Assembly: GCA_013202295.1 (NCBI GenBank)
Contig: JABMRT010000033.1
Location: 1-34,901, forward strand
Direction of reading: 5' to 3'
Length of the DNA stretch: 34,901 bases
Source: Candidatus Zhuqueibacterota bacterium
Lineage (GTDB): Bacteria; Zhuqueibacterota; QNDG01; JABMRT01
Positions 1-21,895 of the stretch are shown here, piece by piece. Within the stretch, counting starts at the first letter, position 1; every line of letters starts with the position of its first letter. Below the pieces are notes generated by a model that ran no database searches, was not told the DNA's origin, and worked only from the letters and a program-made list of their open reading frames with translations. The translations under genes were made by a program, and so were the position numbers.

Positions 1-121
1 ACACAAAAATGCAGTGGATTGAAAACAGCGGCTTTTTTTGGGGATTTGAAAGTATGTTGGAATCACTTGTATTCTTTAGAGTTTCGGTTTGTTTCCAACC
101 ACTGATTTAATCGTTATGTGT
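1..121. other. attC-like recombination site A (left edge)
   Basis: The stretch folds into a long imperfect hairpin. ACACA (1-5) pairs with TGTGT (117-121). CAGTGG (12-17) pairs with CCACTG (99-104). TTGAAAACA (19-27) pairs with TGTTTCCAA (90-98) with one mismatch. A18 is left unpaired between two paired arms, like the extrahelical bases of integron attC sites. The right end carries CGTTATG, like an R' box. It shares the 13-mer GGATTGAAAACAG with the site at 1015-1140. Assignment to attC is an inference from structure; the window edge may cut the left arm. Confidence 0.5.
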
Positions 122-187
122 TAATAAAACCTGAAGCCATGTTGTTAATCTCGCTACAAATGATGTACATATAAAAACAAAACATAT

Positions 188-213
188 AAAGCCTAAGCCG
201 ATAAAGGCTTTTT
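188..213 (+). terminator. Short hairpin with T-tract before the first gene
   Basis: AAAGCCT (188-194) and AGGCTTT (205-211) form a perfect 7-bp stem with a 10-nt loop, followed by only two more T. It ends 20 nt before the start codon at 233. It could stop read-through from the previous cassette or act as a leader hairpin for the gene. The stem is short, so confidence is low. Confidence 0.3.
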
Positions 214-232
214 CCATCAATACGGGAAAAAT

Positions 233-658
233 ATGATAGCCATCCAAAATAAAATCCTTTCTTTTAGATCTGTGCTATTAATGGTCTATACAACCGATCG
301 GCGCATAAAAGAACTCCATAAAATTGAGCCAACTTGGGACCCTGAATATATAAATAAAGTTTCCGATGACATCTCCTTGATAAAACGTTGTTATGCAAAA
401 AGCTTTTTGCATTCGGTTATCTTCTTTATTGTTTTACTTTCTTTGCTCGTTTTTTCAGGTAAAATAAATAATTCTGTTAATCATGTTATTCGGTTTTTCG
501 GTTCATTTTTCGGTTTATGTTGTGTTTTCTTCCAATGGTATATACCCAAATATTACATTGACAATAATCCAGGTATAAACATATACAAGCTATCACAAAA
601 AACGCTCTTTCTATTGGGGACAGGATTAATTTTGCTGTCAATATTTTTCAAGTTATAA
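233..658 (+). CDS. Small integral membrane protein, unknown function
   Basis: This is a 141-residue protein of no family I recognise. Residues 1-58 are polar and charged and probably cytoplasmic. Three hydrophobic segments follow at about 60-77, 85-104 and 122-139, with a short loop rich in Tyr, Asn and Pro between the second and third. There is no cleavable signal peptide. The start ATG has only a weak purine stretch (GGGAAAAA) in front. The gene lies 112 nt after attC-like site A and 22 nt before a coiled-coil micro-gene, so it reads as the first gene of a cassette. Low-GC composition and lack of recognisable homology fit a cassette gene, but the function is unknown. Confidence 0.6.
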   Translation: MIAIQNKILSFRSVLLMVYTTDRRIKELHKIEPTWDPEYINKVSDDISLIKRCYAKSFLHSVIFFIVLLSLLVFSGKINNSVNHVIRFFGSFFGLCCVFFQWYIPKYYIDNNPGINIYKLSQKTLFLLGTGLILLSIFFKL

Positions 659-679
659 GCTAACTTCATGGAGGTTCCA

Positions 680-817
680 ATGTCAAGCACAGATTATATT
701 CTTAATCCATCACTTGAAAACCTTTCGCAAAAGGTACAAGAATTAGAACGAGAGATAGCCAATCTCAGAGCGAAAATTAAACACCTTGAAGAGGGTAAAA
801 AAAGCAGCCCCTTCTAA
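680..817 (+). CDS. 45-residue coiled-coil micro-protein
   Basis: The ORF encodes 45 residues starting MSSTDYILNP and ending KKSSPF. A strong GGAGG (670-674) sits 5 nt before the ATG, which is why it is called as a gene despite its size. Residues 12-40 have heptad spacing of Leu, Val and Ile with abundant Glu, Lys and Gln, so a single amphipathic or coiled-coil helix is likely. It lies 21 nt after the stop of the membrane-protein gene and is probably co-transcribed with it. Its stop overlaps by 4 bp the stop of a convergent gene on the other strand. No function can be assigned; partnering with the upstream membrane protein is a guess. Confidence 0.55.
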   Translation: MSSTDYILNPSLENLSQKVQELEREIANLRAKIKHLEEGKKSSPF

Positions 818-972
818 TGTTTGTCGGCTGGAATGCTTTCATAGCGCAATATTGTAATAGCCAATTCAATGACAGCCCTAAATTCAGTTGATGTAAAATT
901 ATTCTTGTGTGCTATTTCAAGAAAATCATCAACAGATTTAAATAAGTCTTTTGATGTTTTTGGCTTTGCCAT
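814..972 (-). CDS. 52-residue small protein, convergent micro-gene
   Basis: Read on the minus strand, the ORF starts MAKPKTSKDL and ends SIPADKH, 52 residues. AAAGGAAA lies about 6 nt before the ATG, a good ribosome binding site. The sequence is balanced and protein-like, with a predicted helix-turn-helix-like layout: FKSVDDFLEIAHKNN, then TSTEFRAVIELAITILR. It may be a small helical regulator, but no family is recognised. It is convergent with the coiled-coil micro-gene and shares its last 4 bp, so transcripts from the two would overlap. A gene pointing against the others is unusual inside an integron cassette. Confidence 0.5.
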   Translation of the reverse strand: MAKPKTSKDLFKSVDDFLEIAHKNNFTSTEFRAVIELAITILRYESIPADKH

Positions 973-1014
973 TGTTTGTTTCCTTTAAATATGTTAAATG
1001 TTTAGAGAATAAAG

Positions 1015-1140
1015 ACACATAACCAAATAATGAACCGGATTGAAAACAGTGACAGCTTTCTTAAAATCAAAGTTTTCTGGAATCTCTTATCTCATTATTC
1101 TTTATCCTTGTTTTCAACGCGGTTATTATGATCGTTATGC
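1015..1140. other. attC-like recombination site B
   Basis: This is the best of the three attC-like hairpins. CATAAC (1018-1023) pairs with GTTATG (1134-1139). AACCG (1033-1037) pairs with CGGTT (1120-1124). TTGAAAACA (1040-1048) pairs perfectly with TGTTTTCAA (1109-1117). A1039 stays unpaired in the same place as A18 of site A, and the loop is about 60 nt. The outer TAAC and GTTA ends resemble R'' and R' boxes. The site lies between the first cassette and the kelch gene, which starts 50 nt downstream. No integrase is in the window. Stem pairing is seen; attC function is inferred. Confidence 0.55.
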
Positions 1141-1190
1141 CAATAGAATATTGAGATCGATAACTTTCTTTAAAAATAGGGAGGAAGATG

Positions 1191-2216
1191 ATGTCATTTA
1201 TACGAAAGTTAGAGTATATGGCTCTCATTGGTCTGTTAGCAGTTTCGGGGATATTGCGGATTACTTCAATCGGTTTTGCAAAAGGTAATGCCTGGACAAT
1301 GAAAGCCAACATGCTAACGGCAAGGTCTGGTCCTTCCACCTGCGTAGTGAATGGGAAGGTTTATGTCATTGGGGGTGTAAAGGATGCGAACAGTTCAACT
1401 ATTAAGACAGTCGAAGAATACGATCCCGCGACGGACACGTGGACTACTAAAACCGACATGCAAACACCAAGAAGTTGGTTTGCGATCTGCGCCGTGAATG
1501 GTAAGATTTATGTCATTGGGGGTGGAAAAAGTGTTATAGGTGTCGGTCTTTCGACTGTGGAAGAGTACGATCCTGCGGCAGATACCTGGACAACTAAAAC
1601 CGATATGCCTACAGCAAGGTTTGTTCTTTCAGCCAGTGCAGTGAATGGAAAGATTTATGCTATCGGGGGAAAACCGAGGCATGGTGTAGCACCTCTTTCA
1701 ACTGTTGAAGAGTACGATCCAGCTATGGACACGTGGAAAATCAAAACCGATATGAAAACGGCAAGATGGAGTCTTTCAACTAGCCAGATAAATGGGAAAA
1801 TCTATGCCATTGGGGGAGATAGTGGTTCTTCTGAGGGTACTTATGTGGGACTCGCCACTGTGGAAGAATATGACCCAACAACGGACACCTGGACAACTAA
1901 AACAAAAATGCCAACCGCAAGAGGGTATTTATCTGCCAGTGCAGTGAATGGTAAGATTTATGCCATTGGGGGTGGACGAACTTTAAGTACCTCAGGTCTT
2001 TCGACTGTGGAAGAGTACGATCCTGTGGCAGATACCTGGACAACCAAAACCAAAATGCCAACCGCAAGATTTTTTTTGTCTACCAGCGCGGTTAATGATA
2101 ATATCTATGCATTTGGTGGATCGGTTTCATCTTGGCCTTCCTGGCAGGCTTGTTCGACTTTGGAAGAATATGATCCCTCGTCTGATCCGACAAGTGTGAG
2201 GAATCCTTCATGGTGA
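1191..2216 (+). CDS. Secreted kelch-repeat beta-propeller protein, ends at an in-frame TGA before its sorting domain
   Basis: The 341-residue product starts at the ATG of MSFIRKLEY, 6 nt after GGGAGG (1179-1184). An in-frame ATG at 1188 is too close to that site. A signal peptide covers about residues 1-30. Six kelch blades follow, each with the pattern TARxxxSxxxVNGKIYxIGG, a variable loop, TVEEYDPxxDTWTTKT. Together they would close a six-bladed propeller of the galactose-oxidase-central-domain type, usually a protein or glycan binding surface. Blades are near-identical at DNA level in places, so copy number may vary by recombination. The last blade loses WTTKT and ends SVRNPSW before TGA. 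The same frame then continues into a complete T9SS sorting domain (2217-2504). Without read-through the protein would reach the periplasm but lack its export tag. Confidence 0.8.
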   Translation: MSFIRKLEYMALIGLLAVSGILRITSIGFAKGNAWTMKANMLTARSGPSTCVVNGKVYVIGGVKDANSSTIKTVEEYDPATDTWTTKTDMQTPRSWFAICAVNGKIYVIGGGKSVIGVGLSTVEEYDPAADTWTTKTDMPTARFVLSASAVNGKIYAIGGKPRHGVAPLSTVEEYDPAMDTWKIKTDMKTARWSLSTSQINGKIYAIGGDSGSSEGTYVGLATVEEYDPTTDTWTTKTKMPTARGYLSASAVNGKIYAIGGGRTLSTSGLSTVEEYDPVADTWTTKTKMPTARFFLSTSAVNDNIYAFGGSVSSWPSWQACSTLEEYDPSSDPTSVRNPSW

Positions 2217-2504
2217 CAAAGTCCAACTAAATCTTTACTTTATCCAAATTGTCCCAATCCTTTTAATCCTGAGACTCGAATAATCTATGATATTCCCAAA
2301 CACGCACACGTGAAGTTGAAGGTTATTAATTTTTTAGGTCAAGAGGTTCGCACGCTAGCAAATGAATATAAAACTGCAGGATTCTATAAAGTGATTTGGG
2401 ATGGCAAGAATGAGAGAAGTCAGCGGGTATCTAGTGGTGTTTATCTACGCAGACTTAAATCAAGCGAATTTGTCCGAACTAGGAAAATGCTGGCTCTCCA
2501 ATAG
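2217..2504 (+). pseudogene. Severed T9SS C-terminal sorting domain of the kelch protein
   Basis: Directly after the TGA at 2214-2216, in the same frame, 95 codons run to TAG. They encode LYPNCPNPFNPETRIIYDI near the start, then FLGQEVRTLANEYKTAGFY, SSGVYLRRL and a final RKMLALQ. This is a full type A sorting domain matching those of the proteins at 4492, 9442 and 18292. No ATG or good ribosome binding site starts it independently. The simplest reading is one nonsense mutation in a formerly 437-codon gene. UGA read-through or a sequencing error remain possible. Other genes here do end in TGA, so a reassigned code is unlikely. Confidence 0.75.
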
Positions 2505-2548
2505 GAAATAGGCGAAATGATATGGAAACTATCTTTTCATGTTCGTGG

Positions 2549-2638
2549 CATAACACGCTGCTCAACGCGGACGCTTTTATTGGTGGCATGTTTAGGTTCT
2601 GTAGTATCAGGCGCGCCGGTTAGCAGCAACCGTTACAC
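2549..2638. other. attC-like recombination site C
   Basis: TAAC (2551-2554) and GTTA (2632-2635) form the outer ends. GCTGCT (2557-2562) pairs with AGCAGC (2622-2627), C2563 is unpaired, and AAC (2564-2566) pairs with GTT (2619-2621). G2567 is a second unpaired base before CGG/CCG pairing continues. The order of boxes and the bulged bases on one arm match integron attC sites closely, more than sites A and B in primary sequence. The site closes the kelch cassette 45 nt after its TAG. The R' core reads GTTACAC, which departs from the GTTRRRY consensus. Confidence 0.55.
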
Positions 2639-2653
2639 CGCTTAAAATATTGC

Positions 2654-2682
2654 TTGCATAAAAACCAAATTTATATTATAAT
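2654..2682 (+). promoter_or_regulatory. Candidate sigma-70 type promoter
   Basis: TTGCAT (2654-2659) and TATAAT (2677-2682) are separated by 17 bp, close to the housekeeping consensus. It lies just outside attC-like site C and points toward the repeat-rich region and the 24-codon ORF at 2755. FCB bacteria often use other promoter motifs, so activity is not certain. Confidence 0.4.
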
Positions 2683-2754
2683 TCAACCTCATCAAAGCAC
2701 TGCACAATCACAATTTTCATAACACTTTTATTTTCATCAAAACCGAAGCGAGTC

Positions 2755-2829
2755 ATGACGACTGTCTTTATTGTTATTCTAGTACTATTATTTGGCCTGC
2801 TGATCAGAGGGCCGTTTATATTCAAATAG
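2755..2829 (+). CDS. Possible 24-residue hydrophobic peptide
   Basis: The ORF encodes MTTVFIVILVLLFGLLIRGP followed by FIFK, a single membrane-spanning helix. It begins 73 nt after the -10 of the candidate promoter at 2654-2682. GAAGCGAG upstream is a weak ribosome binding site. Such peptides occur as type I toxins and as small membrane-complex subunits; neither is shown here. It could be a chance ORF. Confidence 0.25.
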   Translation: MTTVFIVILVLLFGLLIRGPFIFK

Positions 2830-2926
2830 AATCATTCAGCATCTTGGCATTCACACCCTGATAAACACACCCGCATCAGAGAAATCGCAAAAAAGAATAG
2901 CACTGCATCAGGGCATCCCTCTACCA

Positions 2927-2946
2927 CGTCCCGCACGGGCGGGACG
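2927..2946. repeat. REP-like perfect hairpin
   Basis: CGTCCCGC (2927-2934) and GCGGGACG (2939-2946) form an 8-bp GC-only-rich stem with an ACGG loop. It has no T-tract, so it is more like a REP palindrome than a terminator. The 11-mer GCACTGCATCA occurs on both sides, at 2900-2910 and 3002-3012. Confidence 0.45.
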
Positions 2947-2996
2947 AGGATCTCCTCCCGGGTTAAAGATTGCCGGGACAGGCTTCAAAGGGAGAT

Positions 2997-3302
2997 TAAT
3001 CGCACTGCATCATGAAGTAATGGTTCTGCAATGCATAACAACCATTCTGTAAGCCGTAACAACCACATTCAAACACAAAGCAACAGCATTTAACCGGGGT
3101 AAAACCGCATTTCACCGGGGTGAAATGGGTCATGACCAGGGTAAAATGACAGAGCATCAGGGTAAAATAGCCCGTCACCGGAGTGAAATGACCGAGGACC
3201 AGAATAAAATAGCAAATCACCGGGGTAAAATGGCCGGGAACCGGGGTGAAACCACAGGGAACGGGGGTAAAACGACAAAGTACCGGTAATTTGTCGTCCC
3301 TA
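2997..3302. repeat. Phased 21-bp tandem repeat array
   Basis: The core ACCGGGGT or a close variant starts at 3093, 3114, 3135, 3156, 3177, 3198, 3219, 3240, 3261 and 3282, every 21 bp with no slippage. The extended consensus is ACCGGGGTRAAA followed by a variable 9 bp. The same period continues leftward in degenerate form, with CAAC at 3039, 3060 and 3081. Because 21 is divisible by 3, the minus strand stays open as seven-residue repeats (FYPGxxx), but those have no credible start and I do not call them genes. A 21-bp period equals two DNA turns, so the cores face the same side of the helix. The array ends ~80 bp before the gene at 3385. Confidence 0.85.
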
Positions 3303-3326
3303 TATGTTCAAAATTGAAAAAGGAGG

Positions 3327-3360
3327 GGGTGTTGACACCCTTATTATTCATACTTCCTAT
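3327..3360 (+). promoter_or_regulatory. Hairpin overlapping a candidate promoter for the 3385 gene
   Basis: GGGTG (3327-3331) and CACCC (3336-3340) form a short stem with a TTGA loop. The same bases contain a perfect -35 box TTGACA (3332-3337), and TCCTAT follows 17 bp later (3355-3360) as a poor -10. The leader to the ATG at 3385 would be about 18 nt. The stem followed by TTATTATT could alternatively be a weak terminator closing the repeat region. Confidence 0.35.
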
Positions 3361-3384
3361 CACCTAATCGAAAGGAGCCATACT

Positions 3385-4041
3385 ATGGCAAACAAGAACA
3401 TGAACATTGACGAACGACTCACACGCGCGCAGGTGGCGATTGACAATGCGTTATCAGACGAACCGATCAAGACTTTGCTCACGCCGTTCGGGTATGATGA
3501 CGCTAAACTGAATGAAGGCAAAACTCTGATCGAGCAAACCGTGACACTCAATCAGAAGCAGGACAAAGAGTACGGCGAGCAGTTCGCGGCCACGCAGGAG
3601 CTGCACGCATTGCAGACCACAGCCCACAAGCAGTACATGGATGCCGTGGAACTGGCGCGTATCAAATTTCGCGATAATGTCAAGGCCTGGCAGGCTCTCG
3701 GATTAAACGGCAGTCGCAAGAAAAGTTTGTCCGGCTGGGTAGAGCAGGCAACCAAGTTTTATTCGAATCTGCTGGCTGATTCTGATTTAATTACGGCAAT
3801 GTCCGGTTTCGGGTATACGCAGGAGAAGTTACAGGCTGAGCTTTCTCAGGTTCAGGCTGTGCCTGCGGCGAATGCGAATCAGGCCAAGGAGACAGGTGAG
3901 GCCCAGGCAGCGACCAAAGAACGCGACGCGGCTCTTGACGACCTCGATCAGTGGATGAGCGATTTCAAGACTGTGGCCAAGATCGCGCTCAAAGATCACG
4001 ATCAGTGGATAGAAAAGCTGGGGCTGGCTGTGGTGGCGTAA
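3385..4041 (+). CDS. Helical protein with two tandem copies of an ~85-residue module
   Basis: The 218-residue product starts MANKNMNIDE, with AAAGGAG (3371-3377) 7 nt upstream; an earlier in-frame start at 3304 has no support. It has no signal peptide or membrane segment and is rich in Ala, Gln, Glu and Lys, so it should be an all-helical cytoplasmic protein. Residues ~15-100 and ~125-210 align as two copies. The clearest anchors are LLTPFGYDDAKL against AMSGFGYTQEKL, EQFAATQELHA against GEAQAATKERDA, and ELARIKFRD against KTVAKIALKD. I do not recognise the family. It sits alone between the phased 21-bp array and a REP-type element, and may act on the array, but nothing in the sequence proves DNA binding. 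GC content is higher than in the cassette genes to the left. Confidence 0.8.
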   Translation: MANKNMNIDERLTRAQVAIDNALSDEPIKTLLTPFGYDDAKLNEGKTLIEQTVTLNQKQDKEYGEQFAATQELHALQTTAHKQYMDAVELARIKFRDNVKAWQALGLNGSRKKSLSGWVEQATKFYSNLLADSDLITAMSGFGYTQEKLQAELSQVQAVPAANANQAKETGEAQAATKERDAALDDLDQWMSDFKTVAKIALKDHDQWIEKLGLAVVA

Positions 4042-4052
4042 TCCCGATTCCC

Positions 4053-4130
4053 TGTCATCCCGGTTATCCTTGCAGCCGGGATCCACATCATCCCACCACC
4101 CTCTGGATTCCCTTTTTCAAGGGAATGACA
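4053..4130. repeat. REP-type inverted-repeat element
   Basis: TGTCAT (4053-4058) and ATGACA (4125-4130) form the outer ends. Inside, ATCCCGG pairs with CCGGGAT, and ATTCCCTT pairs with AAGGGAAT, giving two side-by-side hairpins. Repeats of the general form TGTCATTCCC...GGGAATCCA are widespread in bacterial genomes. This copy looks like a chimera of two variants. Confidence 0.6.
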
Positions 4131-4137
4131 AGAAATC

Positions 4138-4186
4138 AAAACCGGGGATAGGGTAGACAGCGACTGAAATGACAGCCCCCGGTTTT
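4138..4186 (+). terminator. Terminator-like inverted repeat after the 3385 gene
   Basis: AAAACCGGGG (4138-4147) and CCCCGGTTTT (4177-4186) are perfect 10-bp arms with a 29-nt loop. A second overlapping stem, GACAGCC (4171-4177) with GGCTGTC (4190-4196), could form instead. The T-tract is only four T. It probably ends transcription of the 3385 gene, and the mutually exclusive stems are notable. Confidence 0.45.
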
Positions 4187-4196
4187 ATTGGCTGTC

Positions 4197-4491
4197 ACAA
4201 TGGAACGATTTTTAAAAATAATCCGTTAACATAATAGTTACTTGCTTTTTTAAATTGTGTTAGTATATTACTGGCAGAAATACTACTTCTTGCACGACAA
4301 CAATTATAGAAATACGAGCTGAATAATCTGAATGAGTGACACTGAAAAATGTGTGCCAACCACATACTGTATGGAAAACAACCGCATCCCGGGTTGCCGT
4401 TAAGGACTGGAAATATTGTTGGCAATATCTGTTTACGTATGTATGGGACATCTTCTTTACAAAGGTGGATTGAAATTTAAGGTGAGATGAC
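4197..4491. other. Intergenic leader before the FG-GAP gene
   Basis: I see no gene here. AT-rich sequence contains a perfect ATTTTTAAAAAT palindrome near 4208 and CAACC/GGGTTG arms near 4379-4396. The last bases carry AAGGTGAG (4479-4486), the ribosome binding site of the next gene. A promoter for the long same-strand gene series is expected here, but no box is convincing. Confidence 0.4.
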
Positions 4492-6078
4492 ATGTTACGA
4501 TCATTGTTAGTAATTTTAACAATATTATCGTTTAGAAATGTGCTATGCCAGGAGTCATTGGATCTATTATCAATGTTTGAAATTGGCTCTCCAGATTCCT
4601 CGGTTTATGATCTTTGTGTATCTTCTGCTGGAGATGTGAACCGCGATGGGTTTGATGATGTAATTGTTGGTTATCTAGATTACTCAGAAGTTGAAGAATG
4701 TGCGGGAAGCGCGTATATCTATTTTGGAGGTGAAAACTTTGATTCCGAGGCTGATCTAATAATATTAGGGCAAAATACTTATGATTTCCTTGGTGAAAAC
4801 ATATCATCTGCTGGTGATGTAAATAACGATGGATATTCGGACTTCTTGGTTGGGATTCCCAAGCTTGATAGAACTTGTCTATATTTTGGTTCATCAACAT
4901 TTAAAAATAATGATATACTAGTTCATTATTATAATGATAGAATGAGGAATCGTTTTGGAGCAGCCGTATCAAATGCGGGTGATTATAATAATGATGGGTA
5001 TCATGATTTCATCATTGGAGCGCCAAGTGATACTTCAGGAGGGATTCAAACTGGTCGAGCAGATCTGCATTTTGGAGGACCCACTTTAGATAAAACGGCA
5101 GGTATTGTCTTTAGAGGAGAATCTGCATGGGACTGTTTTGGGAGAGCCATTGCATGTATTGGTGATATAAACAATGATGGCTTTTCCGATTTAGCGATTG
5201 GTGCACCAAGATATGAAACTGATGAAGACCTCGTTGGCCGGGTATATGTTTATTTGGGAAACAGTTTTAAAACCGATAAATGCGATCTATTTATTACAGG
5301 TCAACCGATGAAAAGAATAGGAAATGCGATTTCATGCGCTGGCGACGTGAACAATGACGGATTCGATGATTTAATAATCGGTGCTCCTTATTTGGGTGCA
5401 ATGTGGGGCCCTTCAAGCTATGTTTACATCTATTTTGGTGGCAGCACTGTGGATACATTGGCCGATGTTGTTATTCAAGGAGATTTTGGATTCGGTTCTA
5501 CTGTTTCTTGTGCTGGTGATATGAACTATGATGGGTATGATGATGTAATGATGAATGATGAGAAAACAATTTATTTCTATTTTGGCGGTTCAGAGATTGA
5601 CACCATTCCAGATTTAATCCTTCCGACGACGAATTTCTATGAACGCATTTCATCATTATCACTGGCCGGTGATGTAAACTATGATGGTTTTAAAGATATA
5701 ATTTTTAGCACAATAGATCGCTATACTGAGAAAACATGGATTCGTAAGGTATATATATACTCTGGAAACATGACTGGTGGACGAATCAACACCCTTCAAA
5801 CGATTACACTGTATCAAAACTATCCAAATCCTTTCAACCTAACAACAGCAATTCCTTTCTCATTGTCTGAAGACGCTCATGTCAAGATATCAATATTTGA
5901 TATAACAGGACGACTCGTTAATACAATTGTTAATCAGCCATTTCCTATGGGTTGGCATGAAGTCATATATAATGGTTCTTATATTTCAAGCGGCATTTAC
6001 ATACTTCAAGCAGATATTATCACGACTGATCAAAAAGAAAAACACTCATTTACTCAAAAAATAACATTCTTAAAATGA
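4492..6078 (+). CDS. Secreted FG-GAP (integrin-alpha-like) propeller protein with T9SS sorting domain
   Basis: The 528-residue protein has a signal peptide over about residues 1-20 (MLRSLLVILTILSF, then NVLCQES). Seven FG-GAP repeats follow, each with AGDxNxDGxxD and most with a downstream IGAP and YFGG. The Asp/Asn-rich loops DxNxDGxxD are calcium-binding loops of the integrin-alpha propeller type. Residues ~440-528 form a type A sorting domain (TLYQNYPNPFNLTTAIPF, IFDITGRLV, SSGIYILQA, KITFLK). The protein should cross the outer membrane by T9SS and be surface-attached or released, most likely as an adhesin or binding protein. AAGGTGAG lies 5 nt before the ATG. Its stop overlaps the next start by 4 bp, so the two are co-translated. 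The enzymatic role, if any, is unknown. Confidence 0.9.
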   Translation: MLRSLLVILTILSFRNVLCQESLDLLSMFEIGSPDSSVYDLCVSSAGDVNRDGFDDVIVGYLDYSEVEECAGSAYIYFGGENFDSEADLIILGQNTYDFLGENISSAGDVNNDGYSDFLVGIPKLDRTCLYFGSSTFKNNDILVHYYNDRMRNRFGAAVSNAGDYNNDGYHDFIIGAPSDTSGGIQTGRADLHFGGPTLDKTAGIVFRGESAWDCFGRAIACIGDINNDGFSDLAIGAPRYETDEDLVGRVYVYLGNSFKTDKCDLFITGQPMKRIGNAISCAGDVNNDGFDDLIIGAPYLGAMWGPSSYVYIYFGGSTVDTLADVVIQGDFGFGSTVSCAGDMNYDGYDDVMMNDEKTIYFYFGGSEIDTIPDLILPTTNFYERISSLSLAGDVNYDGFKDIIFSTIDRYTEKTWIRKVYIYSGNMTGGRINTLQTITLYQNYPNPFNLTTAIPFSLSEDAHVKISIFDITGRLVNTIVNQPFPMGWHEVIYNGSYISSGIYILQADIITTDQKEKHSFTQKITFLK

Positions 6079-6683
6079 ATTTTCATAGACATACAAATAT
6101 TTTCTTCATCCTTGCCCTATCATTACTTATTCATTGCAAAGGATTATTCAACCCTGATTCCGATGAAGTTGGCTGGAGTGATGTTCAAAATGGTTTACGT
6201 TTTCGGATATATACCGATAAAACTTCTTATAAAGTCGGTGAGGACATCTGGCTTCATGTGGAATTTCAGAACTTTAGTCCTCAGCCCATAGTGATTCTGG
6301 TGACTTGGGGATTTGCAGAACCACAGAATAAGCCGCTTTATGATCTTGAGAAATTGATATTGCCTTTTGTTGAAGTCATCCCTTTAATAACGAATAGGTA
6401 TGTTATTATACCTTCTTTATTCAAACTTTTACCTATGAAAACCTTTCATGAACAATCCAAATTAAATCAGTCTATGTGGGTAATAAAAGAGATATATGAA
6501 CAAACATGGTTGAAGGCCAATCCATTTCTTGAACCAGGGGAATTCAAAGTTCGAGCTGTTTATCATTGGGAGGAATTACCCTATGCTATACCTGAGAGAC
6601 AACAAGAGCTTGCAGAAATGGACGCCCCATTGTGGAAAGGATATTTAGAGTCAAATGAGATTGAATTTACTATAATTGAATAA
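6075..6683 (+). CDS. Putative lipoprotein with a beta-sandwich domain
   Basis: The 202-residue product has a short lipoprotein signal, LALSLLIHC, with Cys21 as the likely lipidated residue. The segment YKVGEDIWLHVEFQNFSPQP resembles the opening of BsuPI-like or other immunoglobulin-type beta-sandwich domains, and LEPGEFKVRAVYHWEEL resembles the closing strands. An ~80-residue insert between them is unlike any family I know. The start codon lies within the stop of the FG-GAP gene (ATGA overlap), so translation is coupled and the two proteins may act together at the envelope. The BsuPI comparison is a fold-level impression only. Confidence 0.65.
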   Translation: MNFHRHTNIFFILALSLLIHCKGLFNPDSDEVGWSDVQNGLRFRIYTDKTSYKVGEDIWLHVEFQNFSPQPIVILVTWGFAEPQNKPLYDLEKLILPFVEVIPLITNRYVIIPSLFKLLPMKTFHEQSKLNQSMWVIKEIYEQTWLKANPFLEPGEFKVRAVYHWEELPYAIPERQQELAEMDAPLWKGYLESNEIEFTIIE

Positions 6684-6786
6684 AGAAGTCATATATTTTT
6701 ACTCAAACGTCGTCTAATCTATGAAATTTTATGAAACAATCCCTCTTTTTTTTAAAGTTAGATTGAAAGATAATCAGAGGCCTATC

Positions 6787-8115
6787 ATGAATATTTTAAA
6801 ATGTCTATTTAGAATATGCGCTACGCTTTGTCTGATTGCAGGAACATACAGCCCATGTTTTTCGGATGGCAGCTTTTTTCCAGTTGAGGTCGATCAAATC
6901 GGGAACAGCGCACTCTCACCCAATCAACGTGCCGTAATCATTCACGATGGTGAAAACGAAACCATGATCGTTCAGGTGAAATACAGCGGCAATGTGCAAG
7001 ATTTTGCCTGGGTGATCCCCCTGCCCGCCTTGCCTGATGAAACCGGCATTCAAATAGAAAGTGACTCGATATTTACACTGCTACATGACTGGTCTCAGCC
7101 GAAAGTATATATGGCCAGTGCAACCCGGTCTGGAGGCGGTGGCGGTGGAGAGGGTGGATCCCATGATGAAGCGATAAATGAGGACATTGACGAACAAGCA
7201 AAAGTATGGCAAACCTTGTCGGTTGGGCCTTATGACGTACAAATTATATCTGGGAATTTGGCTGAATCTGTGCGAAAATCGCTTAATGATAACGGGTATG
7301 CGTACTCTCCTTCCATTGATCCAATATTAAATTTCTATATCAGAAAAAATTGGTATTTCATGGCTGCTAAAGTCTCTATTGATATGCAAGAAAATGGGGA
7401 TAACTCTATGTATCAAGCAGGTCTTCCCGCGATAAAAGTCACATTCCCGATTGATAAAGCCGTGTTCCCTTTACGAATATCAGAAATATCATCAGCTCGG
7501 AAAAATGAAATCGAAGTCTACCTGATTGCCGATCATCGCATGATCAGCGACACTTACCCGACTTATGCAATGAATCCTGAAACAGTCGACAAAAAAATAA
7601 GATCACAAATTGAAGCACAAACTGAAAATTTCAGCAGCGGTCTGGCATGCGCATGCAACAGGATCACAGATCCTGTACAACAAGGATCATTAACATTTGA
7701 TTATGAATCCATTTTTCAGGAAGAATTGGCTTCTCACCCTTCCGGCTCATTTATTATTGAGTATGTGGATTATGGATATACATCAAGGGAGGGCTATGAC
7801 TATACTTATCCAGGAAGTTTTGATGGTTTTTTCGATCCATATTTTCCTGAAGATGATCATTACATGATCACACGTCTTCGAACGGTTTTATCGCCTGATG
7901 ATATGACGGATGATGTAATCTTTATACCTGATCCAAATGGGGATGTACCCCTGCATTTAAGTGTATTTATTAACCAGTATAATCCATGGCAAACAGCTGG
8001 TTTTGGCCTTCCTTTTCTTCTTTTATTGCCAATTTTCCTGTTCAGAACATTTAGAAAACGATATAGCAGGCATATACTCCTTGCCCTGTTGGCGTTGTAC
8101 CTTATTCTTCTATAA
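6787..8115 (+). CDS. DUF2330 family membrane-anchored envelope protein
   Basis: The mature protein opens DGSFFPVEVDQIG, then ALSPNQRAVIIHDG and FAWVIPLPALPDE, the conserved start of DUF2330. I choose the ATG at 6787 because it has AGAGG upstream and gives a clean signal peptide (MNILKCLFRICATLCLIAG). An in-frame ATG at 6721 lacks a ribosome binding site. This start gives 442 residues. A glycine run (GGGGGGEGG) interrupts the domain near residue 120. A C-terminal hydrophobic segment, FGLPFLLLLPIFLF, followed by basic residues and a second hydrophobic stretch, anchors the protein in the inner membrane. The function of DUF2330 is unknown. It is 15 nt upstream of the PorV-like gene and likely shares its transcript. 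Confidence 0.8.
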   Translation: MNILKCLFRICATLCLIAGTYSPCFSDGSFFPVEVDQIGNSALSPNQRAVIIHDGENETMIVQVKYSGNVQDFAWVIPLPALPDETGIQIESDSIFTLLHDWSQPKVYMASATRSGGGGGGEGGSHDEAINEDIDEQAKVWQTLSVGPYDVQIISGNLAESVRKSLNDNGYAYSPSIDPILNFYIRKNWYFMAAKVSIDMQENGDNSMYQAGLPAIKVTFPIDKAVFPLRISEISSARKNEIEVYLIADHRMISDTYPTYAMNPETVDKKIRSQIEAQTENFSSGLACACNRITDPVQQGSLTFDYESIFQEELASHPSGSFIIEYVDYGYTSREGYDYTYPGSFDGFFDPYFPEDDHYMITRLRTVLSPDDMTDDVIFIPDPNGDVPLHLSVFINQYNPWQTAGFGLPFLLLLPIFLFRTFRKRYSRHILLALLALYLILL

Positions 8116-8130
8116 ACGGACTCGAATATC

Positions 8131-9303
8131 ATGAGACATTTAATCGTTCACATAGGTCTTGCTCTGCATTTGATGCTTAGTTCCACGGGTTTCTCTGAAG
8201 AACCAACTCATGCAATACCTCAAACCGGGAGTCACCGCTCCTTTGCAATGGGTGGTGCATATCTCGCTTTTGATACGGGCATTAATGCCCTTTACGGAAA
8301 TCCCGCAGGATTGGCTAAAAGCAGTCAGGCAGAAATTATCATCGGTCATTATTGGCAGGTTTATAAGACCATGCAATATGAAGACGCATATTATACGACC
8401 CAGTATAGTGATGTTTCAATATCTTATAAACCGGTTCAGCGGATCAATTATGTAGGTGTATCTTTTTTAAAAGCTTCAAGGGATTCAATTTATTGTTTTG
8501 GTGGCGGTATTGGATACAGCTCATTTTATACATGGCATACAACGCGGCATGAAAGACGCATATATGATGATGGCAGCCAAACTCGAATAGAACGGGATTC
8601 ATATGGCAATTATAGCCTTATTCATTTAGGCATTGGCTTTTCAATTGGAAATAAAAGCGAAATCGGCATTACAGCAAACATCCCCTTTTTGAACCGGACA
8701 ACCAATGTAACACATTATATAGATATATATGAACCATTCAGCACCTATTCAAATACGATTAACCGTAAAGAAGCAAACCCTTTCTTGCGTATTGGGGCAA
8801 CAATCCAACTTACATCTCAAATTTCCCTTGGTATTCTGTGGAATCAATCATATTGGTATAAATATGATTTTCAGAAAACAGTTCTCCCGAGTGCATTGAA
8901 TTTTGGTTTGGCAGTCAAACCTGTAAAAAACTGTTTAGTCGCAATCGATCTTGAAAGCCGGCCTTGGTCAAAAGTAAAAATATATGATGGATATATTGGC
9001 AATGCTCAGAGTGGCACAGCCTGGCATTTTGGTGTAGAGTATGGGAAAAGGCTCAAAACAAGAGCAGGCTACACTTGGGATATTCTGCCAATACTGGACG
9101 CAGAGGAACAGCCCGTCGATTTACAGAGTATTTCTCTGGGATTCGGTTACAGAATCGGCACCGTTCAAATCGATTTGGGTACGAGATATCGTTTTTCAAC
9201 TCACAAAACAAATAGCCCACTCTGGTGGCGCAACACAGATATAACCTACGATTATCTTTTTCGTGATCTGGTCATACAGTCAGGGATAAAATTTATACAT
9301 TAA
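8131..9303 (+). CDS. PorV-like outer-membrane beta-barrel protein
   Basis: The 390-residue protein has a signal peptide (MRHLIVHIGLALHLMLSSTG). The mature start matches the PorV/UPF0164 branch of the FadL-like barrels: GSHRSFAMGGAYLAFDTGINALYGNPAGLA. The rest shows alternating hydrophobic and polar residues typical of outer-membrane strands, with repeated short segments ending in aromatic residues. PorV is the shuttle protein of T9SS that receives cargo from the translocon. A role in T9SS is therefore plausible given the cargo genes on either side, but PorV-like paralogues also serve other functions and no porU, sprA or porT is nearby. The ribosome binding site is weak. Confidence 0.7.
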   Translation: MRHLIVHIGLALHLMLSSTGFSEEPTHAIPQTGSHRSFAMGGAYLAFDTGINALYGNPAGLAKSSQAEIIIGHYWQVYKTMQYEDAYYTTQYSDVSISYKPVQRINYVGVSFLKASRDSIYCFGGGIGYSSFYTWHTTRHERRIYDDGSQTRIERDSYGNYSLIHLGIGFSIGNKSEIGITANIPFLNRTTNVTHYIDIYEPFSTYSNTINRKEANPFLRIGATIQLTSQISLGILWNQSYWYKYDFQKTVLPSALNFGLAVKPVKNCLVAIDLESRPWSKVKIYDGYIGNAQSGTAWHFGVEYGKRLKTRAGYTWDILPILDAEEQPVDLQSISLGFGYRIGTVQIDLGTRYRFSTHKTNSPLWWRNTDITYDYLFRDLVIQSGIKFIH

Positions 9304-9441
9304 TAAGTAGCTGCAAAACACAAAAGATCAAACCAATCTCTTGCAATTAATATTTCATATTCTTATTTGATAAAACCGTCCTGATTGCTTATCTTTTCCC
9401 GTTACCTATATTTCACGTGTTTAAAATCGGAGATCTCCTAT

Positions 9442-11964
9442 TTGATAAAAAACCGGTTGTACAATGTATTACTACTATGTATATGGATAATTCTTCCAAC
9501 CTTGGGAGCTATTTCCAGTCACATCACGTATCACTTTCCCAAAGATGGCGCAAAATGGGTTACTCCCAAAGCAACCATCATTTTAAAATTCAACACATCC
9601 ATCCTTTCTGAACAGTATGAATTTACAGTGATCGGGGATGAAAGTGGCGTCCATATTGGGGATAAAATAATCTCCCCCGACCAGCGCACTCTCATCTTTA
9701 AACCGCAAACATCATTTTCACCTGGAGAAGAGGTTCAAGTCATAGTAGTGGATGCATATAACCAATCGGAACTACTTCAATTCGAATTCATGGTTTCCTC
9801 CAGTATTTCAGATCAACTGAATATGGACTGGATTAATGAGCATGATTCTCAATCCAAAACGTTACAGAGCCAGCCGATGAAAACAGTGGGGCATACCACG
9901 ATCCTAAACGGAGTTAGCGTACCCAGCGATTTTCCTGAAATCCACACACAGGTTTATGAAGCAACCGCACCTGGCAGGGTGTTCTTCAATACATGGTATA
10001 CGACTGTAGGCAGGTATTTAATTATCTGTGAGAACGATGGCACACCCTATTTTTATCGTCGCTTCACAACTGCCCTTGCTGATTTTAAAGTGCAGCCTTC
10101 TGGTGTGCTCTCCGCATTTATAATGAATCCGCGCAGTTTTATGATATTTGATAACCATTATAATCAGATTAATGCATTTACACCCGGCCATGGCTACTGG
10201 ACAGACCCTCACGATTTTGTACTATTGCCAAACGGTCACGCATTAATAATTGCTTTTGAATGGCTCATCGTGGATATGCGCGAAATCGTTCCCGGCGGGT
10301 CTCCAAATGCGCAGGTTTTGGGAAACCACATTCAGGAAGTGGATAGCGAAGGTAATGTCTACTTGGAATTTCGGTGTTGGGATCATTATCAAATCCAGGA
10401 TGTCGTTCATAAAAGCCTGACTTCCAATACCATTGATTATACACACACGAATTCGGTGGCCGTGGATTACGACAGCAATTATGTGATTTCCGTCCGGCAC
10501 TTCAATGAAATCACAAAAATTAACCGGTATACGGGTGAAATCATATGGCGGCTCGGCGGGCCGAACAATCAATTTGATTTCATCAATGATCCTTACGAAC
10601 TAGACTATCAGCATCATGCGAGGCCTGTACCCGGAAAACCGAATCACTACACCGTCTTCGACAATGGGAATCATCGCACTCCCGAATTCTCACGCGCTGT
10701 GGAATTCAGAGTGGACACTGTGAACATGACTGCTGAGAACGTTTGGGAATTTCGATATTCACCCGATTTGTATGCATCCGGAATGGGCAGTGTACAACGT
10801 TTACCCAATGGGAATACGTTTATTGATTGGGGCCGGGGTCCTCCGACTTCATGGGCATGTGAAGTAGATTCAAGTGGAAATGTCATTTATGAGACAGAAC
10901 GACTGGGTATTGCAAGCTATCGATCAAAACGGTTTGAATGGGAAGGCATGCTGGATGCCCCCTACCTGATCGCGGAACCCCATAATGACTGTGTTACCTT
11001 AATTTTTAATAAATTTGGCGATGAGAATGTAAATTACTACAGAATCTTTGGTGACACTCTGGAAGAGCCGACAAACATGCTCATGAACTCGCAAGAGACA
11101 ACGGCTAATCTGACAGATCTGATAAATAATATTACCTGGTACTTTCGCGTGACCGCAGTGTACAACAACGGACAGCAAAGTACTTTTTCAAATACTCAAA
11201 AAGTAAAGGTTAAATTCTTTGGGCCGGGTAAAAATCACATTTTAAACGGTGCTTTTTCAGATGGATCATCGCGCTGGTATGATCAGAACTCAGATGAAGC
11301 AGAAGGACGTGGCAGCGTTATCGATGGGCAGTATCATATGCAAATAGAAAATGGAGGAACGGATTATTCTCACATCCAGGTAGTTCAAGAGAACATTGAA
11401 CTCTCTCAGGGTGAGACCTACCTTTTTGAATTTGATGCATATTCCGATTCCATTAAAGTCATTGATGCGAAGTTTGAGAGGCGATTCGAACCTTATGAAA
11501 ATTATGGTGAAACACCTCTATCCCTGATCAATGAACAGATGAAACACTTTTCGTATGAATTTATCATGAAAGCAACAAGCGATTATAATGCACGTGTTGT
11601 TTTCAACTGTGGCGGCTCAGATGGGGATGTCTATCTAGACAATGTCTCGCTTCTCCATATTGATCCTACAGGCATAGAATCATATAGTCACGTTGTTCCC
11701 ACAACGATGACTCTACATCAAAATTATCCCAATCCCTTCAATGCATCAACCCGAATTCAGTTTGATTTACCGAAGCAGGAAATTGTAATTCTTAAAATTT
11801 ATGATATGTTGGGGCGTGAAATAGAAACTCTCGTCAATGAAAGAAAACGGGCTGGATCTCACACAATTAATTTTGATGCATCAGATCTTTCCAATGGTAT
11901 TTATCTATATCGACTGGATTCGCCATCTAAAGTACAGACACAGAAAATGATATTGCTGAAATAA
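9442..11964 (+). CDS. Arylsulfotransferase-like secreted protein with T9SS sorting domain
   Basis: I place the start at TTG 9442, since GGAG (9429-9432) precedes it and it gives a proper signal peptide, (M)IKNRLYNVLLLCIWIILP. A TTG at 9385 is possible but unsupported. The product is 840 residues. In order it has an Ig-like SbsA-type domain (~25-120) and an arylsulfotransferase (ASST) propeller (~175-510) with WTDPHDFVLLPNGH, NTIDYTHTNSVAVD, TGEIIWRLGGP and VFDNGNHR. Then come an FN3-like domain (~515-595), a carbohydrate-binding-like jelly roll (~605-745) and a sorting domain (754-840, HQNYPNPFNAST). ASST enzymes move sulfate between phenols using an active-site His; candidates are His in PHDF and THTN. 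The binding module suggests a polysaccharide or glycan target, but the substrate is unknown. Confidence 0.85.
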   Translation: MIKNRLYNVLLLCIWIILPTLGAISSHITYHFPKDGAKWVTPKATIILKFNTSILSEQYEFTVIGDESGVHIGDKIISPDQRTLIFKPQTSFSPGEEVQVIVVDAYNQSELLQFEFMVSSSISDQLNMDWINEHDSQSKTLQSQPMKTVGHTTILNGVSVPSDFPEIHTQVYEATAPGRVFFNTWYTTVGRYLIICENDGTPYFYRRFTTALADFKVQPSGVLSAFIMNPRSFMIFDNHYNQINAFTPGHGYWTDPHDFVLLPNGHALIIAFEWLIVDMREIVPGGSPNAQVLGNHIQEVDSEGNVYLEFRCWDHYQIQDVVHKSLTSNTIDYTHTNSVAVDYDSNYVISVRHFNEITKINRYTGEIIWRLGGPNNQFDFINDPYELDYQHHARPVPGKPNHYTVFDNGNHRTPEFSRAVEFRVDTVNMTAENVWEFRYSPDLYASGMGSVQRLPNGNTFIDWGRGPPTSWACEVDSSGNVIYETERLGIASYRSKRFEWEGMLDAPYLIAEPHNDCVTLIFNKFGDENVNYYRIFGDTLEEPTNMLMNSQETTANLTDLINNITWYFRVTAVYNNGQQSTFSNTQKVKVKFFGPGKNHILNGAFSDGSSRWYDQNSDEAEGRGSVIDGQYHMQIENGGTDYSHIQVVQENIELSQGETYLFEFDAYSDSIKVIDAKFERRFEPYENYGETPLSLINEQMKHFSYEFIMKATSDYNARVVFNCGGSDGDVYLDNVSLLHIDPTGIESYSHVVPTTMTLHQNYPNPFNASTRIQFDLPKQEIVILKIYDMLGREIETLVNERKRAGSHTINFDASDLSNGIYLYRLDSPSKVQTQKMILLK

Positions 11965-12004
11965 ACGCTAAAAGATTTAAATCGAGAAGCAGTCAGGAAA
12001 GTGA

Positions 12005-12442
12005 ATGAAACGGTTGATCTTTGTTTTTATGATTATATTGACGGTGTCTTGCATAAGGGACAAATTACCCTTCACACCTGTACAAAGTGATTTTACACCC
12101 ACCGATCATGTCATCGGGACAATGGGCGAAACCATGTGCCTGTCAATAAGAGTTCCTGTTAATGTACACCATGTAATGTCTGCCGATTCCAATAAAATCC
12201 AACTCAACCAGCCAAATTGTTATCTTATCCCTCGCGATGAAATGATTCAATTAGTGCAAAACTTATCCGACACGACAGTATTTCACTGGGAATTCATGAC
12301 AGCAGTAACGCCTTATCCCGATGAAGATTGTGTGTTACTTGCACACCTTGAAAATTTGGACGGATATATGTGTTCTATTGGTTCTGGAAACAACGCGGGC
12401 GTGATATTGCATAAATTAATCAATCGCTTACTGGAGATGTGA
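12005..12442 (+). CDS. Small putative lipoprotein
   Basis: The 145-residue product has a lipoprotein signal, MKRLIFVFMIILTVSC, with Cys16 as the lipidated residue. AGGAAAG lies 3 nt before the ATG. The mature part has no recognised domain. It contains five further cysteines (near SFTxxx of TMCLS, PNCYL, DEDCV and YMCSI), which could form disulfides in the periplasm. It follows the arylsulfotransferase-like gene by 40 nt and is probably on the same transcript. A role beside that enzyme is possible but not indicated by the sequence. Confidence 0.65.
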   Translation: MKRLIFVFMIILTVSCIRDKLPFTPVQSDFTPTDHVIGTMGETMCLSIRVPVNVHHVMSADSNKIQLNQPNCYLIPRDEMIQLVQNLSDTTVFHWEFMTAVTPYPDEDCVLLAHLENLDGYMCSIGSGNNAGVILHKLINRLLEM

Positions 12443-12498
12443 GAGTGGTACTTGATGCAGCTGCGGATATGTTTTAAAAAGAATAGTGGAGGAAAACA

Positions 12499-12909
12499 TT
12501 GACCAAAGACGATATCGCTTATTGCGGATTGGACTGCTCGGTCTGTCAGAGCAAATTCGCGGAGGTTCGAAAAAAGATCGAATCGTTGGATGATGCATTT
12601 GAAACCGTGAATATGGAAGCCATAGCCAAGGTCATCCCCTTTATGCGATTCAATTATTTCGGTTATAAGAAACTGGCCCAATTTTATAAACAGGAATGCC
12701 CCGGCTGCCGGAACAAAGGAGGCAATCCGTTTTGCAGCATTCGTAAATGCGCGATTAAAAAAGGCTACTTTACTTGCGCGGAATGCGACGAACTCTGTGG
12801 CAAATTCAAAGCTTTATTTAAAGTTCACACGGACAATGAAATCCAGAACAATATTCAGCACATTCGGGAGAACAGCATTGAATCTATGGTGCAGTCGAAA
12901 TCTGAGTAG
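12499..12909 (+). CDS. DUF3795 cysteine-rich protein
   Basis: The 136-residue product begins at TTG, set by GGAGG (12488-12492) 6 nt upstream. The start MTKDDIAYCGLDCSVCQS is the hallmark of DUF3795, with CxxxCxxC. Further pairs follow: CPGC, CSIRKC and CAECDELC. The 13 or so cysteines are arranged to bind zinc or iron-sulfur. No signal peptide is present, so it is cytoplasmic, unlike its exported neighbours. The family has no established function. The length is normal for the family. Confidence 0.8.
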   Translation: MTKDDIAYCGLDCSVCQSKFAEVRKKIESLDDAFETVNMEAIAKVIPFMRFNYFGYKKLAQFYKQECPGCRNKGGNPFCSIRKCAIKKGYFTCAECDELCGKFKALFKVHTDNEIQNNIQHIRENSIESMVQSKSE

Positions 12910-12954
12910 TCGTTCCGGGTGAGGAGAATTTTCATTATTCTTAGGAGAAAACAG

Positions 12955-13710
12955 ATGGAATGGTCCAAGAAATTTACATTGATCAGTGCATGCATTCTCA
13001 TGTGTGCTTTTCTAGTATCCTGCGGTGTTCGGCACTCTCTGCATCAGACTACCCTATATCAGGATAGCACCTTTTCGGTCGGGGATCTACAAAATAAACG
13101 ACTGGCCGTTTGCGGTATGGCCTCCTCATTCGTATCAATGTCGGAAACAGAACGCGTGGAAATCAGCATGCTTCTCTCCACCCTTCTTTTTGATAAATGT
13201 GTGGAAGAATCCTCCACAATGGAGATATTCAATACCAAGCAGGTGCGATACAATCTGGGTGAGAAGCTGTACACTCCTCTGATGAAAAGCCTGGATTCGA
13301 ACAGTGAGCTGGATCTCAAGATGATGCAATCTCTGAGCGATTCACTGCCCAATACAGATTATCTGCTTTTGGGTACCATTGAAGACGAAGTGATCCGTAA
13401 TGATTCCGTTGAGAACACAGTTGAGAGCGATGGCGAAGAAATGATTGAGACTACTTATACTCGGACCTATGTAATCTCGTCCGAATTTCAAATTTACAAT
13501 CTTAAGTCTGGCAAAAAAGTCTGGCACAATGCCATAGAAAATGAAGCGTCAAAATCAGAGAAGACCGAAGAAAAGGCCAATCCCTCACTCGGTGAAATCG
13601 TCACAGATATTATTTTTGGAGAAGATGAGCAGCTTGATCCGGTCAAGCTAAAACGGGAAGAGGTGCTTGAGGGCATCTATAAAAAATTGGCCAAACTCTT
13701 AATTCAATGA
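12955..13710 (+). CDS. Putative periplasmic lipoprotein
   Basis: The start is the ATG at 12955, with AGGAG 8 nt upstream; an earlier alternative at 12919 has no support. The 251-residue product has the lipoprotein signal LMCAFLVSC with Cys23. The mature part contains LQNKRLAVCGMASS, DYLLLGTIEDE and a later FQIYNLKSGKKVWH. These resemble lipoproteins of the curli-assembly CsgG or LPP20 kind, which form alpha/beta periplasmic domains (a resemblance only). A charged stretch rich in Glu and Lys (residues ~195-215) is probably disordered. It lies 45 nt after the DUF3795 gene. Confidence 0.65.
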   Translation: MEWSKKFTLISACILMCAFLVSCGVRHSLHQTTLYQDSTFSVGDLQNKRLAVCGMASSFVSMSETERVEISMLLSTLLFDKCVEESSTMEIFNTKQVRYNLGEKLYTPLMKSLDSNSELDLKMMQSLSDSLPNTDYLLLGTIEDEVIRNDSVENTVESDGEEMIETTYTRTYVISSEFQIYNLKSGKKVWHNAIENEASKSEKTEEKANPSLGEIVTDIIFGEDEQLDPVKLKREEVLEGIYKKLAKLLIQ

Positions 13711-13797
13711 GCCAAACATAAATTTGACATTGCATCACGCTGATTTATGCGACACCTTATCATCTGACAAGAATTCAATAGTTAAGGAGCAAAGAAA

Positions 13798-15657: not shown

Positions 15658-15947
15658 TGGATGGGTGGATTGAGCATATGTTGTAGAATGATTCTTTAGA
15701 GTTGGATGGTGGCAGGATAAAATCCAATTCTGTCAACTGTATTCGGATCGGATTACAATCCGACAAACAGGAATATGAAAATCCTGGCGGGTCGATTTAA
15801 TGCAATCCAGTCAAATTCGATTGCATGTAAATTGCGATAAAAAATATCAATCCTTTTAGGTTATCAAAAAAATCAATCTAAATGATAGATGTTTTCACTA
15901 GAATCTTGGCACTATTTTGGATTGAGAGGATATTTTAAATACAATAT
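15658..15947. other. Intergenic region with palindromes
   Basis: No gene is seen. TCGGATT (15748-15754) and AATCCGA (15757-15763) form a near-perfect 16-bp palindrome without a T-tract. TGCAATC and GATTGCA near 15800-15825 form a second inverted pair. They may be regulator sites or the weak terminator of the beta-helix gene. Confidence 0.35.
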
Positions 15948-16208
15948 GCCACAGATAAACACGGATGAAACACGGATAGAATGAAATGAATTAAAAAAAT
16001 AGCCTCTATGATCTGATCTGTTTTTGAATGTTATATTATTGAACTGGAAGTATTGACAAAGTATAATTCGAAAAATGAGTTCCAATTATTAATAGCATTA
16101 ATAGTGACTTAACAGATAATCAGATTGTTCATCAGTCTCGGAATAATGAATATTTGAGTTAGGCGTCTCGTCTTTTTAAATCGGTGTGCATCCGTGAAAA
16201 TCCGTGGC
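15948..16208. mobile_element. MITE-like element with ~29-bp terminal inverted repeats
   Basis: The left end starts GCCACAGATAAACACGGATG (15948-15967) and continues to about 15977. The right end (16180-16208), read in reverse complement, starts GCCACGGATTTTCACGGATG, so the two ends match at most positions. The 261-bp interior is AT-rich and has no ORF, which fits a non-autonomous miniature element. Sequences of this CACGGATG type recur in many environmental genomes. No clear target-site duplication is visible by eye. Confidence 0.65.
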
Positions 16209-16470
16209 GAATTCATAATCGTTGATTGGTGCTACCCACTTAATATAACATTGAGCCATATTGTTTTTATCCCTAATCACATTTCTCCATATTTAAAATC
16301 GTTGTTAACCATTTGGTCATCAGCATCCAGTTAGTTTTTCTCGCAGAAAAAATGTATATTGTAACAATGAATGAACAAAACTCATGGATGCGGAGTTGAA
16401 TCCATAGAATAGCCATATCCAAGCCGGGAACTACTCGCTGGCTTAAGAATAACAAGGAGCACATATTCAT

Positions 16471-17796: not shown

Positions 17797-18189
17797 ATAT
17801 AGCCTATTACTTCTCTTCTCCATCCCAAGTTATGCTTGGGGCACAGAAAAGAAATTTGGCCTGCTGGCGTAAATGTTACGGGTTTATTAGTAGACTGCTA
17901 TTGCTACAAAGTAAGTAATAAATGTTGTTACTGAAAAATTAGTTTGGCAATTCCTTGCCAAATAAGATTTTAATGTGCAAAAAATTACAAGATCGTATTT
18001 AAACGTGTGATTTCTATTAACATATTAGATTAATAGAAACTTTCCTTATATCATTGATAATGAAGTTTATAAGATAGGGTGAAGAATATTATCTGATTTC
18101 ATGGTATTATCTTTGCAGATTCAAGATAAACTCGAAGGTGACTGGAAAGATCTTCGATAATTGTTAATCCTCTGTTAGCGTTTTTTACT
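17797..18189. other. Intergenic region downstream of rhlE
   Basis: No gene is seen. CCCAAG/CTTGGG (17824-17840) is a weak hairpin just after rhlE and may be its terminator, though it lacks a T-tract. TTTGGCAA (17943-17950) and TTGCCAAA (17955-17962) form a perfect 8-bp stem with a TTCC loop; this could be an operator or an RNA hairpin. The remainder is AT-rich. Confidence 0.35.
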
Positions 18190-18234
18190 AACTGTGAATT
18201 CACGGTTTTTCACTTACTATTGTATAAAACAATA
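18190..18234 (+). promoter_or_regulatory. Tandem palindromes upstream of the xylanase gene
   Basis: AACTGTGAATTCACGGTT (18190-18207) is an 18-bp palindrome around a perfect GTGAATTCAC core, with one T/G mismatch per arm. TATTGT (18218-18223) and ACAATA (18229-18234) form a second inverted repeat spaced by ATAAA. They lie 58-102 nt before the start codon, the expected place for operators of a substrate-controlled gene. The regulator is not in the window. Confidence 0.45.
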
Positions 18235-18291
18235 TTCTATTTTATATTAAGTCATACGCACACCGAACATACAATTGAAGAAGGGAGCGTC

Positions 18292-19569: not shown

Positions 19570-19575
19570 TAAGAA

Positions 19576-19610
19576 GTGACAAGTGACAAATGACAAGTGA
19601 TTGGTGACTT
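19576..19610. repeat. 7-bp mini tandem repeat between convergent genes
   Basis: Five units run in register: GTGACAA, GTGACAA, ATGACAA, GTGATTG, GTGACTT. The array fills the gap between the xylanase stop and the end of xthA. ACTTGA and TCAAGT directly after could form a short hairpin shared by both transcripts. Confidence 0.5.
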
Positions 19611-19637
19611 GATCCTTTTCTCAAGTAGGGATCAGTT

Positions 19638-21845: not shown

Positions 21846-21895
21846 GTTTTAGTCCGACACAAACATTATCTGATCATTTTCCTGATTTACATAAA

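Follow-up and report, generated by a model that had tools for sequence, protein, structure and literature searches.

The window (the whole stretch of DNA analysed, 34,901 nt, which is contig C5 of a 5.15-Mb genome in 303 contigs) most probably contains the final two gene cassettes of an integron-type array, beside the 3' chromosomal boundary of that array. The array would be served by an integron integrase (IntI) encoded on contig C8, either in trans or from the array head that is missing here; we give this reading a probability of about 0.94. It draws on attC homology and structure, the organisation of the array, an intact IntI gene, and the chromosomal flank. In the features below, bit scores of attC sites are those of model R2, built from 70 matches that include sites A and B, whereas site C is in neither this set nor the 13 sites behind model R1, and E-values come from a short calibration, partly of a model trained on the same genome.

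1..119, plus strand: attC site A, 5' end cut by the contig start (R2, 86.5 bits, E = 9e-17)
114..1134, plus strand: gene cassette 1, 1021 bp, from the TT after the G/TT cut point of site A to the G of R' in site B, as predicted from integron biology
233..658, plus strand: main ORF of cassette 1, 141 aa, with hydrophobic stretches and no Pfam family
820..973, minus strand: small ORF in cassette 1, about 51 aa by translation (MAKPKTSKDLFKSVDD...)
1017..1140, plus strand: attC site B, complete (R2, 97.4 bits, E = 3.4e-19)
1135..2632, plus strand: gene cassette 2, 1498 bp, between the cut points of sites B and C
1188..2216, plus strand: kelch beta-propeller ORF, 342 aa (PF01344, 4.6e-69; repeats of about 147 bp)
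2217..2504, plus strand: T9SS-type/FlgD_ig C-terminal sorting domain (PF13860, 26.5 bits against a cut-off of 27)
2548..2638, plus strand: attC site C, weak and terminal (R2, 25.1 bits, E = 0.0037; absent from model training)
2639..34901, no strand: attC-free chromosomal flank, the 3' boundary of the array (no R2 match; Pfam content)

The opening bases of the window (ACACAAAAATG) correspond to the interior of an attC. For site A, only the last two bases (AC) of the R'' box lie in the window, while its R' box (GTTATGT) occupies positions 113-119. A 119-bp stretch identical to site A is found at C218:22-140, where it is followed by a different cassette, and it forms part of a complete 124-nt copy (C218:17-140, 100% identical, reading ACATAACACAAAAATG...CGTTATGT), the only place where the full R'' box of site A (ACATAAC) is visible. 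The contig start at site A is thus most likely a repeat-induced assembly break, which accounts for the absence of the TAAC end of this site from the window. Since the break falls within a repeated attC, the window lacks the upstream end of its array, which may be a CALIN or the tail of a longer integron.

Site B has both outer boxes (R'' ACATAAC at 1017-1023, R' GTTATGC at 1134-1140) and a clear orientation, scoring 109 bits on the plus strand vs 22 bits on the minus strand with model R1. An independent structural scanner, at a score of at least 14, returned site B as its sole match in the window and no site in 20 dinucleotide shuffles of it. Site C also has both boxes (R'' GCATAAC at 2548-2554, R' GTTACAC at 2632-2638), but its single-strand fold is no better than that of shuffles (z = -0.15), although its 25.1 bits are at the level of the weaker Vibrio VCRs (24.8-26.9 bits). 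The three attC-like hairpins described in the earlier note stand essentially as placed. The sequence it saw in both A and B is GGATTGAAAACAG (16-28 and 1037-1049), and the unpaired base it set at a matching place corresponds to A18 in site A and to GA at 1038-1039 in site B, both on the 5' arm and at the same spot in a 13-site consensus fold. The gene it placed shortly after each site is likewise present, with main ORFs starting 113 nt past A and 47 nt past B. Outer TAAC/GTTA ends had been described for all three sites; this is correct for B and C, while the 5' TAAC of site A lies outside the window.

The consensus fold was derived from an alignment of 13 related sites of this one genome, including site B and the identical C218 copy of site A, with A and C themselves left out. 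With no structure supplied, RNAalifold recovered both stems, R''/R' and L''/L', together with the additional base of the 5' arm. TAAC/GTTA was invariant across the alignment, in agreement with the R''/R' core boxes RYYYAAC / GTTRRRY, and the inner L''/L' stem was imperfect, with extra base(s) on its 5' arm and conservation of structure rather than sequence. Cells at paired positions could pair in 92.3% of cases vs 72.3% in shuffles, and compensatory changes on both sides were seen in 10 of the 16 pairs. The covariation score reached 0.464 vs 0.114 in shuffles, and 0 of 500 shuffles attained this value, a figure that is not to be read as a probability because the alignment consists of related sites from one genome. 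When partners were slid by one to three columns, covariation fell to 0.04-0.14.

A scan of the window with R2 returned sites A, B, and C, and beyond these chance-level matches only, so that the covariance check proposed in the earlier note, run with the genome's own model, gave strong matches at A and B and a weak one at C. The same model, trained without any Vibrio sequence, recovered 45 VCRs at E < 0.1 on a 34-kb segment of a Vibrio superintegron, all between annotated cassettes and on one strand, which most annotated cassette genes share. No other single result speaks as strongly for the attC identification. Conversely, nine long stretches of chromosome from this genome (loci L151-L156 and L158-L160) had no R2 match in the same search that found sites on four array contigs. 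An Rfam scan matched no family. Judged from sequence and predicted fold, the hairpins are genuine attC sites that would mark two gene cassettes at the edge of an array, with cassette boundaries at 114-1134 and 1135-2632, as the earlier note had suggested for an integron-derived array.

In cassette 2, a single in-frame TGA (2214-2216) splits the kelch domain from the T9SS-type sorting tail (window 1188-2504), through either a nonsense mutation or a sequencing error. T9SS-type C-terminal sorting domains also support the FCB-type host proposed in the earlier note. The flank consists of 32 kb of ordinary chromosomal genes and encodes, according to Pfam, an FG-GAP protein, an arylsulfotransferase-like protein, a DEAD-box helicase, a GH10 protein, an M49 peptidase, HlyD proteins, and others. 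Within it, about eight imperfect direct repeats with a 21-nt spacing (CACCGGGGTAAAATG...) occupy window positions 3061-3290, just upstream of an ORF at 3304-4041.

Two genes in the genome match TIGR02249 above its cut-off, one on C8 and one on C241. The absence of an integrase reported in the earlier note is hence true of the window contig only and fails for the genome, where the C8 gene is intact and the C241 gene interrupted. The C8 gene (C8:40986-41927) is a 331-aa ORF scoring 451 bits against a cut-off of 265, and matches V. cholerae IntI4 over its full length (PDB 2a3v, 1.2e-91). Both the tyrosine-recombinase motifs and the integron-specific insertion align in this match, and the gene is predicted to encode an intact integron integrase. 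The C241 gene (C241:1-1286, L027; 369 bits) has its frame broken after HSFATHL. Its insert is about 300 bp long, encodes an 88-aa GIY-YIG protein, and is bounded by the inverted repeats CCCTGTGAGAT / ATCTCACAGGG. No attC was found on the intI-bearing contigs (C8:2918-42917 and C241), so that a complete intI-attI-cassette locus is not assembled in this genome; C8 ends about 1 kb past the intI stop. Among 20 sampled genomes of relatives, nine had a TIGR02249 match above the cut-off. In a relative, G017, intI lies 0.76 kb from an attC.

Two further observations concern the surroundings of intI. In 8 of 91 intI loci, drawn from several phyla, a small ORF of about 110-117 aa that matches no Pfam or NCBIfam family adjoins intI, following it immediately or being transcribed divergently (L009:2448-2801; L033/L179, L034, L035, L068, L073, L075, and L078). 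At the end of C8, close behind intI, lies a partial ORF (L009:2953-3432, i.e., C8:42438-42917) whose NCBIfam match, to the antiviral reverse transcriptase Drt5, is weak and far below the cut-off (E = 7e-4).

Across the genome, scans of the assembly and of individual contigs gave about 99 attC candidates, of which a few are weak, spread over 38 contigs. The scan of the whole genome scored the best 150 first-look candidates, and more attC sites may exist. Strand is uniform within each contig, with one weak hit on C218 as the exception, and successive sites are separated by a median distance of 1.4 kb. The longest ORF lies on the attC strand in 51 of 56 inter-attC intervals, most starting less than 140 nt past the preceding site. 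These are consecutive attC sites in the same orientation with single ORFs or modules between them, i.e., arrays. Cassette genes scanned encode a TIR-domain protein, a sulfatase, ParE-type toxins, an OLD-like AAA ATPase, and a methyltransferase, and several encode exported proteins with T9SS sorting tails. On at least 11 contigs (C5, C218, C142, C68, C287, C238, C208, C252, C75, C289, and C81), attC borders, on its 3' side, a stretch of attC-free DNA at least 17 kb long; the C218 flank holds one further weak match. C68 and C287 each carry three attC sites and no intI on the contig, with flanks of 49 kb and 12 kb for C68 and of 28 kb and 55 kb for C287, and these clusters are clearly CALINs within single long contigs.

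Three attC sites have R' interrupted at the same point, directly after ...GAC where GTTA is expected (C209:645-766, L018; C54:3077-3197, L022; C183:10906-11028, L046). The inserts are about 89% identical copies of one element that starts with a short hairpin (TACTTGC...GCAAGTA), and all three contigs end inside it. The element may be an attC-targeting insertion sequence; a Pfam search with its partial ORF yielded nothing meaningful.

It is highly improbable that these hairpins are a dispersed repeat family, such as a MITE or a regulatory RNA, that merely resembles attC. Some lone copies do occur in relatives, where G007 and G017 have single or paired matches embedded in long contigs. Other copies, however, mostly form same-strand series at cassette spacing, the covariance matches are strong, and the earlier note's own grounds for giving up its proposal thus did not materialise. 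We rejected a non-integron repeat on the strict same-strand order of the arrays, the ORF or module in each interval with its orientation, and the recognition of Vibrio VCRs by the model; the lack of an Rfam match and the presence of IntI in the genome point the same way. As to the kind of array that the window ends, two refinements of the main reading can be considered. The earlier note's CALIN-type array fits the lack of intI on the window contig, yet this contig is cut at site A and IntI is encoded elsewhere in the genome. We give slightly better than an even chance to a true CALIN, in which the window array never had or no longer has its own integrase, through off-target (attG) insertion or intI loss; this and the main reading can both hold. 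At least 11 contigs with an attC-to-chromosome 3' junction stand against two intI loci, and the C68 and C287 clusters, with their long flanks on both sides, provide examples. Origins proposed for integrase-less clusters include off-target insertion by an IntI encoded elsewhere, intI loss, and rearrangement (PMC8618304), as well as cassette insertion at non-classical attG sites (Loot et al. 2024, as cited in PMC11023631). Given the contig break at site A, the window could nonetheless close an array whose head carries the C8 or C241 intI.

That is the alternative refinement, a large sedentary chromosomal integron fragmented by the assembly, with the C8 or C241 integrase at its head and the window as its 3' tail, which we consider plausible at somewhat short of even odds. 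The roughly 99 attC candidates, the many contigs ending inside arrays, and the recurrence of an identical 119-bp attC stretch in a second context agree with it, as does the position of intI 3' ends within the same order, often close to contig ends; integrons are also expected to be split between contigs in draft genomes (PMC9024848). Chromosomal 3' junctions are, however, too many for one or two arrays. With two intI loci vs 11 junctions, most of these junctions would represent separate integrase-less arrays, unless some of the flanks are in fact cassettes of very large size or strains are mixed in the bin. Because the assembly breaks at attC repeats, we infer many loci from many contigs. Such chromosome-bounded arrays without intI would have originated when cassettes inserted off target or when arrays became separated from an integrase. 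More tentatively, and with the odds somewhat against it, IntI in trans may have scattered cassettes and small clusters over many attG-like chromosomal sites, creating a genome-wide pool instead of one array; the lone or paired attC sites in long contigs of G007 and G017 would then reflect the same process. Two empty-site comparisons, one between the C287 cluster and same-order relatives and one between a lone G017 attC and same-phylum relatives, met too little synteny to be informative.

Under the main reading, the last two cassettes of an integron-type array, each cassette would comprise one ORF, or a small number of them, and a downstream attC, whose bottom strand would fold into a hairpin resembling that of VCRs and about 124 nt long, with R''/R' and L''/L' stems and the extra base. 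The integron integrase would recognise this hairpin and cut at G/TT, allowing cassettes to be excised, captured, or reshuffled. The enzyme would be the intact 331-aa IntI of C8, in trans or from the missing array head; we infer that it, among the integrases of this genome, acts on the window array, and that the predicted attC sites are active in recombination.

Overall, the gene-capture system is genuine but of an ordinary kind, in a bacterium that has been little studied, and is mildly unusual in having at least 11 chromosomal 3' array junctions vs two integrase genes. One point alone might interest a specialist, namely the large number of array loci: if many loci are confirmed, this order would lend itself to studying whether cassettes insert genome-wide outside attI. 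The data also add a large cassette pool with VCR-like sites (about 99 attC candidates) to a poorly sampled FCB-type lineage. As in Vibrio, the sites are about 123-128 nt long with outer TAAC/GTTA boxes and L stems whose 5' arm has an additional base, and they form same-strand arrays; the architectures are close enough for one model to find both. Unlike in the Vibrio superintegron, the host belongs to a different group, cassettes are longer (median site gap about 1.4 kb), several encode T9SS-exported proteins, and arrays are apparently spread over many loci. The window, C68, and C287 share with CALIN elements (Cury et al., IntegronFinder 2.0, PMC9024848) at least two attC sites, cassette spacing, and the lack of intI on the contig, but truncation of the contig may be the sole reason why the window lacks intI. 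Sedentary chromosomal integrons of uncultured bacteria and archaea (PMC8618304, PMC9668308) similarly combine intI with a large cassette pool and attC sites over many contigs of a draft genome, whereas here no complete intI-attI-array locus is assembled. Finally, integration at attG sites, as far as the cited account of Loot et al. (2024) goes, offers a mechanism by which an IntI in trans could produce many scattered clusters.
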